DNA from: Candidatus Bathyarchaeota archaeon
Lineage (GTDB): Archaea; Thermoproteota; Bathyarchaeia; Bathyarchaeales; Bathycorpusculaceae
NCBI GenBank assembly: GCA_937873375.1
Contig: CALMWK010000037.1
Coordinates: forward strand, 1-45,177
Direction: 5' to 3'
Length of the DNA: 45,177 bases
Shown: piece by piece, positions 42,186-44,799 of the stretch
Position numbering within the stretch: position 1 is the stretch's first letter
Layout of the letters: each line of letters begins with the position of its first letter
The notes under the pieces: model-generated
What the model was told of the DNA's origin: nothing
Seen by the model: only the letters and a program-made list of their open reading frames with translations
Databases searched by the model: none
Made by a program: the position numbers and the translations under genes

Positions 42186-43541
42186 TTATGCCGCCGTGCT
42201 GACTGAAAAAAAGTCACTAATTCGCTTCTGGAAAAGTGCATTCCGCAGCAATTTGCCCTGAATTATCCACTGAGACAGCGGAATTTCAAACCTGCCGCTG
42301 ATGAACTTGAGCGACTCAGTCAAATTCTTGAATTGATAGGGTTTTTGGCGCATGGCGTTGCGCACGTTTTCGCGCACTTGCCAGACGCCGATGGGCATGA
42401 TGTAGCCTGGTCGGGCTTCCCGCAGAACAATCACAGTTGCTTGGCGACGCTCTTTAACCAGTTGCTCGCAAACTGCTAAGCGTGCGGAGTAGTAGCAGCC
42501 GCCTATCTGCGCGTATGTGGTTCTGCCGTTGTGTCCTTCCCAGTCAGAGTAAATTGCAACGCTGTTTCCGTTAGGATTCCACACTGTACCAGGATACCAA
42601 GCTTCCATTGACTCGTAACTCCACTGTGCGGGAATCATCAAAATTTCGAAAACGTTATCCAAATAAATGGATTCGTAAACGCGGTACTCGTTTACCTCTG
42701 GAAAAGTCTTAACCTGCTCCACGAGACTTTTGCTTATCATGTCGTCAACAGCGGTGATGCTCCACCGTGTGGGAACAAGCCGACGCTTTTTCTCTATGCC
42801 GAAGGCGCCGACGCTGAAGGCTTTCTGAATTTTAGTAACCATGACGCCACGGTTGTAGAGGTCGACAACGGCTTGGGCAGATTTTAAGTCTGTATCATAA
42901 TACGCCTTTTCTACGCGGTGGTCAAACCGGGCGTTACCAACATGCAAATCACGTATGGGCGCACTTGGACCAAACGGCTGAACATCATCACTCAAAAATA
43001 TGGACCCGCGGGGCTTCTTGGTGAGGTTTAACTCCATGTCCACGCTGGTGTCAGCTAGGGCTAACTCGCGGGTTTGGTCCATTATTTTTCCAGCCTGCGC
43101 AAACTCCTGTACATGAACGCGGTGCTTGCCGCGGACAAGTAAACTGCGGAAGCCAACAATTTCATCTATTGACTTGCCGAACCATTGCTCAGGCAGGTCG
43201 TAGAGGCTGGTGTCCTCGTGAACAGGAGGCACAAGGGGTCCAACGTAAACATGTGGGTAACCAATTCTGCCTATGAACACGCTTGGCGGCGAGACACCGG
43301 CGATGTCTTCGCTGGACATTAAAGGCACACTTTTGAGAAAGGAGTTAACTTTGACCATGATTGGGCAACGAGTTTTGCCACAGAGGTTTCTGGAGCCCTT
43401 GCACAAAACACAGAGACTGTTTTGGCTGGTTCGGGTGGCTATCTGGTTTTCAGATATTGCAGAGTGATTAACCTGCTTTATGACATCCACTAACCAATTG
43501 TCTGAAGAAGCAACCTGCGGAACTTTCAACGCTATGGTCAT
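42186..43541 (-). CDS. nreA: NreA/NreB-type archaeal DNA repair protein with C-terminal PIP motif
   Basis: CVLCKGSRNLCGKTRCPIM Zn motif, SPPSVFIGRIGYPHVYVGPLVPP, C-terminal QKRISDFF. Confidence 0.88.
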   Translation of the reverse strand: MTIALKVPQVASSDNWLVDVIKQVNHSAISENQIATRTSQNSLCVLCKGSRNLCGKTRCPIMVKVNSFLKSVPLMSSEDIAGVSPPSVFIGRIGYPHVYVGPLVPPVHEDTSLYDLPEQWFGKSIDEIVGFRSLLVRGKHRVHVQEFAQAGKIMDQTRELALADTSVDMELNLTKKPRGSIFLSDDVQPFGPSAPIRDLHVGNARFDHRVEKAYYDTDLKSAQAVVDLYNRGVMVTKIQKAFSVGAFGIEKKRRLVPTRWSITAVDDMISKSLVEQVKTFPEVNEYRVYESIYLDNVFEILMIPAQWSYESMEAWYPGTVWNPNGNSVAIYSDWEGHNGRTTYAQIGGCYYSARLAVCEQLVKERRQATVIVLREARPGYIMPIGVWQVRENVRNAMRQKPYQFKNLTESLKFISGRFEIPLSQWIIQGKLLRNALFQKRISDFFSVSTAA

Positions 43542-43752: not shown

Positions 43753-44799
43753 GTGAATATTGAGACTGGAGACACACGTAACATGAGAAAAGAGGCAGTG
43801 TTTGCGGTGGCGCTTTTAGCGCTAGTACTTGCAGCAACAGTTTCAACTGTCTTCGCGCAAACAGCGGTTGACGTTTACATAATGGATCCCTACAGTGGTA
43901 GCACAGGGGCTAGGGGCACCCTGTCAAATGGTTATTGGGTGGGAGAAATCCCGGTTAAAATTAGCAGCTCAACCATATCTGAATATCAGACGGTTGCATA
44001 CTGCATCAACTACGATAAACTGCTGTATGTAAACCAGAAATACTCCGCCACCTTGAATCCTGTTCCGGATAGTGTAGAGTGGAGAGCTGTAAGTTATTTG
44101 CTAACGTGGAATTATCCGGCAGACAATTATGGCGCAGCCACTGCCCAAGTAGCCATCTGGAGGCTTTTGAACGGTAATTACCACGCTGAATCTTGGCTTG
44201 ACACAAACCTTGATAACGCAGGCAAAAACCTTGCAGATTCAGCCTACGGCAAAGATGTCGCCAGGAATACAGATCAGTTCACTTGGATTTGGCCTGTAAC
44301 GGGCAACATGGCATCTGTGAAAGCCAACCCAAATGAAGTTGTCACGTTCAGAGCGCAGCTTACAAGCGCCAGCGGAGTTCCTCGACCAAACGTTAGGGTA
44401 CTCTTCAGTGCTATGCTCAACGCGCCAGGCTCAATTCAACAGTTAAATTCGACATACGTGAACCCGATGGTAACATACACGGATATTCGCGGAGTAGCCT
44501 CAGTCGACATCAGAGTGCCTCCAGATGCCCCAATTGGTTCAACCATTGAAGTTAAAGCCTCAACCAGAGGCATGTGGCCCCAACAATATGTGGACATCAC
44601 CAACACATCAGCCCAAGATCTGCTGGGAATTGGAGAAACCTTTGAGTTGACAACTTCGTGCAACCTTGTGATTCTAGCTTACATAATGGTGGTTCCAGAA
44701 TCCCCACTGGGAGCATTAACTGCCATAGGCGCCTTTGGAGCAGCTTTCGCAGTCTTTAAAGTGAAATTTAAACCATCAAAAAAGAAGAAGAAACAATAA
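43753..44799 (+). CDS. Secreted, membrane-anchored surface protein with putative internal-thioester (TED-like) domain and Ig-like stalk
   Basis: Signal peptide MRKEAVFAVALLALVLAATVSTVFA; AYCIN…SYLLTWNYP…ATAQVAIW; Big-like domain; VPESPLG + TM + KKKKKQ. True start may be ATG 43783. Confidence 0.7.
   Translation: MNIETGDTRNMRKEAVFAVALLALVLAATVSTVFAQTAVDVYIMDPYSGSTGARGTLSNGYWVGEIPVKISSSTISEYQTVAYCINYDKLLYVNQKYSATLNPVPDSVEWRAVSYLLTWNYPADNYGAATAQVAIWRLLNGNYHAESWLDTNLDNAGKNLADSAYGKDVARNTDQFTWIWPVTGNMASVKANPNEVVTFRAQLTSASGVPRPNVRVLFSAMLNAPGSIQQLNSTYVNPMVTYTDIRGVASVDIRVPPDAPIGSTIEVKASTRGMWPQQYVDITNTSAQDLLGIGETFELTTSCNLVILAYIMVVPESPLGALTAIGAFGAAFAVFKVKFKPSKKKKKQ

Follow-up and report, generated by a model that had tools for sequence, protein, structure and literature searches.

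Does a surface protein of an uncultured archaeon carry an internal-thioester domain (TED) of the kind that a 2015 survey placed exclusively in Gram-positive bacteria (PMC4450167), and, if so, which glutamine would be joined to its cysteine? The question arises from the window, the whole stretch of 45,177 nucleotides that was analysed, which is one entire contig of a 2.0-Mb Candidatus Bathyarchaeota genome in 164 contigs. A first-pass annotation had proposed that a gene near the end of the window encodes a secreted, membrane-anchored archaeal protein with a TED of the internal-thioester type, a family call that profile, fold and conservation all support.

The open reading frame described there is present at 43753-44799 (+) and is 348 amino acids long, with a GTG start in the frame of that annotation; residue numbering throughout is based on this GTG, as before. 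Translation more likely begins at the ATG at 43783 (residue 11), since GGAG lies upstream of it and the MRK/MKR N-termini of the homologues align there. The neighbours are ordinary archaeal genes, namely Nre (42186-43541, −), inorganic pyrophosphatase, NucS and tRNA-Asp, and no functional clue was found from either the conserved neighbour Nre or tRNA-Asp. Positions 37-33000 of the window are taken up by a long run of amino-acid biosynthesis genes of an ordinary archaeal chromosome (homoserine dehydrogenase, aspartokinase, aminotransferases, acetolactate synthase type, LeuA type, EPSP synthase and DHQ synthase II). The protein is divided as follows.

43783..43857 (+): putative signal peptide MRKEAVFAVALLALVLAATVSTVFA, residues 11-35, based on the hydrophobic stretch, the homologue starts and GGAG
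43864..44061 (+): N-terminal β subdomain of the TED, strands A-D, residues 38-103, from the AlphaFold (AF2) model, with strands assigned by comparison with PMC6194298
within 43864..44061 (+): loop joining strands A and B (residues ~44-65), where TEDs have their 'specificity loop'
44002..44004 (+): Cys84, predicted thioester cysteine, closing strand C within the motif YCIN, invariant in 10/10 homologues
44074..44244 (+): three-helix bundle α1-α3, residues 108-119, 125-139 and 151-164, from AF2 and the PF08341 match at 81-150
44146..44148 (+): Gln132, in QxxΦW of α2, judged structural, present in 9/10 homologues with Ala in relative L006
44275..44514 (+): Ig-like (Big_1) β-sandwich, about residues 175-254, from Big_1 in homologues and AF2 strands
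44446..44454 (+): N-glycosylation sequon NST (Asn232), from the sequence, with LNSTY in most homologues
44542..44592 (+): candidate strand P, first arm of the Gln hairpin, residues 264-280, AF2 model positions 229-238 and 242-245
44614..44616 (+): Gln288, predicted thioester glutamine, in AQDLL, invariant in 10/10 homologues, 204 residues from Cys84
44614..44667 (+): candidate strand Q, residues 288-305, AF2 model positions 255-257 and 262-270
44689..44796 (+): candidate C-terminal sorting or anchor signal, residues 313-348 (VVPESPLGAL, a hydrophobic helix and a Lys-rich end), a tail common to unrelated open reading frames

PF08341, the Pfam TED family, matches residues 81-150 (E 6e-4) at a score of 20.6 bits, just under the curated cut-off of 22 bits. 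Close relatives score 22.0-28.2 bits, above this cut-off, and the model matches nine of the ten homologues used here (40-54% identical to the window protein), with a best value of 1.8e-5. The window protein is the only PF08341 match in its 2-Mb genome, and no match was found in 14 control genomes. Because PF08341 recognises this protein, alone in its genome, together with 9/10 of the homologues, the cysteine and glutamine motifs go beyond chance. Both motifs are present as first described, [YFL]C-hydrophobic as YCIN and QxxΦW as QVAIW; the cysteine is carried on a β strand that runs to residue 84, with YC[IM] in all ten homologues, and Q132-W136 is located in the central helix of the model (residues 125-139), with the motif retained in nine of ten. 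The CxEQ motif of α2-macroglobulin/complement TEP proteins is absent, the surroundings of Cys84 reading YCINYDK, and a complement-type thioester was set aside. Archaeal α2-macroglobulin/TEP homologues with CxEQ are known internal thioester proteins (PMC8416519), but their fold and motif are unrelated.

Searches of PDB sequences with the window protein and with the family profile returned no TED relatives, so the sequence evidence alone is moderate, and profile-profile comparison (hhalign) of the family with pLS20-type TEDs gave a weak match (E 0.068). The empty PDB sequence searches, along with the sub-threshold Pfam score, would fit motifs that arose by chance in some unrelated surface protein of Ig-like type; such a coincidence is barely credible, as several relatives exceed the Pfam cut-off and a fold search of 350,542 PDB chains independently ranks TEDs first. 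The window protein is most likely a TED.

Profiles and models together show homology and topology. The AF2 model of residues 36-306, based on an alignment of only seven bathyarchaeal sequences, has a mean pLDDT of 89.1 and a pTM of 0.85, and an earlier model that included the C-terminus has a pLDDT of 80.6 and a pTM of 0.76. Both begin with four to six β strands, of which the Cys84 strand and strand D come last, and continue with three helices, a β-sandwich and a final hairpin; both place Gln132 and Trp136 in the second helix; the class I helix α0 is missing from the model of residues 36-306. The best fold matches of this second model are the class II TEDs 6fwy (1.0e-9) and 6fwv (9.3e-9), which also head the matches of the first model, followed there by the class I TEDs 4c0z, 5a0g and 5a0l at about 2e-3. 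The TM-score to class II TEDs is only 0.30-0.36, with an rmsd of 11-13 Å, which means that the separate parts agree whereas head, sandwich and hairpin do not superpose as one. The slipknot, a P-Q hairpin that passes through the head, is not reproduced in the models, or at least not confirmed by them, and either the model or the protein may depart from it; the alignment comprises seven sequences, and model confidence is lowest in the Gln288 region, with block means of 69-77.

In class II TEDs a β-sandwich is inserted between α3 and strand P and the thioester glutamine lies on strand Q (PMC6194298). The Ig/Big-like stalk that had been described for the window protein is real as an Ig-like region, with Big_1 sub-threshold in the protein itself and matching 9/10 homologues (best 2.6e-10), but it does not stand behind the domain as a stalk: Big_1 and AF2 place it between helix 3 and strand P, ahead of Gln288, and with α0 lacking this is the class II order. 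The stalk reading was consequently replaced, as the region lies where class II TEDs carry their inserted β-sandwich.

The family shares with Gram-positive class II TEDs (EfmTIE86, BaTIE, SaTIE; 6fwy, 6fwv) the YC-hydrophobic-hydrophilic cysteine motif, QxxΦW in α2, the absence of α0, the Ig-like sandwich between α3 and the Gln hairpin, the Cys-Gln spacing and the top fold matches. It differs from them in being archaeal, in its approximately 15% identity, in having an archaeal-type C-terminal signal and neither CnaB-type stalk repeats nor LPXTG, and in a slipknot that the models do not confirm. Class I TEDs (SfbI, CpTIE, Cpa; 5a0l, 5a0g, 4c0z) share the head fold and the motifs, but possess the extra helix α0 and lack the inserted sandwich.

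The first-pass annotation had located the codons of Cys84 (44002-44004) and Gln132 (44146-44148) correctly and had joined these two residues in the thioester, with the Ig domain as a stalk, taking the QxxΦW glutamine to be the thioester glutamine of TEDs in general. Cys84 and Gln132 are indeed both strongly conserved and fall one in each half of the Pfam TED model, but this pairing is very improbable. In the solved TEDs the partner is a glutamine on a strand far downstream (PMC4450167, PMC6194298); the TQxxΦW glutamine hydrogen-bonds the cysteine backbone and is not essential (PMC4450167), and in Cpa the thioester still formed when it was mutated (cited in PMC4450167). Gln132 sits in this α2 motif in the model, and the intact gene of relative L006 encodes Ala at position 132 whilst retaining Cys84 and Gln288. 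Neither the Cys84-Gln132 bond nor the general role assigned to the QxxΦW glutamine is therefore upheld.

Gln288 is the likelier partner. Across the ten homologues, no Cys or Gln column is invariant apart from Cys84 and Gln288; Asp289 and Leu290 are likewise invariant, giving a family motif, QDL[LI], that follows immediately on the Ig-like region. In the window protein it reads AQDLL, of the hydrophobic-Q-hydrophilic-hydrophobic-hydrophobic type. The spacing from Cys84 to Gln288 is 204 residues, and 175-208 across the family, whilst the class II pairs are Cys88-Gln292 in EfmTIE86 (204), Cys71-Gln266 in BaTIE (195) and Cys296-Gln467 in SaTIE (171) (PMC6194298). Among Bacillus and Listeria pLS20-type TEDs the distance from Cys to Q-x-L is 185-189 residues, and one of them has the same KQDL. 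Owing to this invariance, the class II-like spacing, the loss of Gln132 in L006 and the published role of the downstream glutamine, Cys84-Gln288 is the predicted thioester pair, and the revision changes which glutamine to mutate.

A TED fold could also persist without a thioester, in which case Cys84 would be buried or disulfide-bonded in an ordinary Ig-type envelope protein. The slipknot not seen in the models would fit such a protein, as would a further cysteine at 303 or 306, a possible partner for Cys84 that nine of the ten members have, the window protein included, but the reading is decidedly unlikely. A paralogue in the same genome (L014) keeps Cys84 and Gln288 with no other ectodomain cysteine, for which reason a Cys84-Cys303/306 disulfide was set aside, and the invariance of Gln288-Asp289-Leu290 amid variable surroundings is predicted less well by a simple structural role.

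The preferred reading, an archaeal class II-type TED with a predicted Cys84-Gln288 thioester that captures an amine of its target, is considered probable. By analogy with known TEDs, Cys84 on strand C and Gln288 on strand Q, after the Ig-like insert, would condense spontaneously into an internal thioester with loss of ammonia, and this bond would lie beside the Gln132/Trp136 motif of α2. The thioester would then be open to attack by a lysine amine on a specific target, and an isopeptide bond would come to join the archaeal protein to that target.

Secretion and anchor signals are evident in the protein. The signal peptide, two N-glycosylation sequons and the order VVPE-x-x-x-G, hydrophobic helix and Lys-rich end, of which the helix and the Lys-rich end had been correctly noted before, indicate a surface protein. 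Neither an LPXTG sortase signal nor isopeptide or ester stalk domains were found (Pfam, window protein and homologues), and, with neither repeat stalk nor LPXTG, the protein would be held close to the membrane.

The same VVPE-G/TM/basic tail is found on at least 15 unrelated bathyarchaeal open reading frames, with four strong copies in the window genome. The tail has the same order of short motif, hydrophobic helix and basic end as archaeosortase/exosortase substrates (PGF-, PEF- and VPXXXP-CTERM), but, unlike these, it matches no NCBIfam CTERM model and may therefore be an undescribed sorting signal. The window genome contains two exosortase-family genes, one of which (126.8 bits) is directly beside a tail-bearing gene, whilst the second is thaumarchaeosortase-like. 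The adjacent genes lie on contig C158 of this genome (G000; L060:316-2454 (−) and L060:2735-3568 (−)); the tail-bearing gene encodes a secreted protein that ends in VVPEYTFGGL-TM-KKRK, and the two are a possible undescribed archaeosortase-substrate pair.

Full-length homologues occupy 11 loci in 10 of the 257 genomes of the class, all from one Bathyarchaeota family, and the named relatives are all Candidatus Bathyarchaeota. Nine of these loci are beside Nre, which points to a resident orthologous gene; the exceptions are the second copy in the window genome (L014, G000:C22), which lies beside MetW-like and glycosyltransferase 2 genes, and the G038 copy. The G074 orthologue (L017:7992-8999, equivalent to L008) is interrupted in frame by a TGA, where QxxΦW has its conserved Trp, and by a TAG, and is either decayed or affected by sequencing errors. 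Plasmids, phages and viral contigs yielded no relatives; a single-sequence scan of genome contigs returned nothing, and a profile scan of them returned six Bathyarchaeota loci.

PF08341 matches above the cut-off are present in other archaeal genomes too, so archaea are perhaps already included in automatic annotation. Elsewhere in the phylum, archaeal genomes contain a second type of TED-like protein that lacks the Ig insert (L054:775-1848, L058:889-3243 and L059:886-2319), with the motifs GWC[IA]D ... Q-AIW ... Q[IT]-[IV]II and, in L058, SdrD_B domains. Two bathyarchaeal bins contain Gram-positive-like TED proteins with YQPL-type glutamine motifs (L052:820-2007 (−) and L013:1462-3414), which could be due to transfer or to bin contamination.

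By analogy, we infer a role as a covalent adhesin, and the putative target lies on another cell, in a matrix or in the envelope of the archaeon itself. TIE_pLS20, the conjugation adhesin of the Bacillus subtilis plasmid pLS20, is a class II TED in which YCID is followed, 188 residues on, by a Q-x-L strand, and is likewise secreted and, as reported, not sortase-anchored; it differs in being plasmid-borne and longer and in its Cna-like repeats, and its profile-profile match to the archaeal family is weak.

An active thioester might serve construction rather than adhesion, tethering S-layer or glycoproteins covalently within the cell's own envelope. A stalkless, membrane-anchored protein of about 300 residues may not reach past the S-layer, and one locus kept across nine genomes, with no variable or mobile context, would suit such a function. 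This is possible but on the unlikely side, since TEDs of known role are adhesins for a host or mating partner (PMC4450167, PMC8092201) and presence in 10/257 genomes of the class would be expected of an accessory role more than of an envelope function that the cell cannot do without. The fullest form of the preferred reading combines an archaeal class II TED that has no stalk, a working Cys84-Gln288 thioester and an undescribed VVPE-G archaeosortase signal in a protein that bonds covalently to partner cells or to the archaeon's own envelope; it is tentative and, taken as a whole, somewhat more likely to fail than to hold.

Literature searches for papers on archaeal TED/TQXA proteins found none. 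What appears to be new here, as read from sequence and model, is a class II TED architecture that is archaeal, stalkless and equipped with an archaeal C-terminal signal, which suggests, by analogy, that archaea may use covalent grabbing in the Gram-positive style. Should the thioester prove real, the range of covalent surface capture would come to include archaea, through a sediment lineage that is abundant and uncultured, and covalent thioester capture would be a mechanism common to Gram-positive bacteria and archaea.
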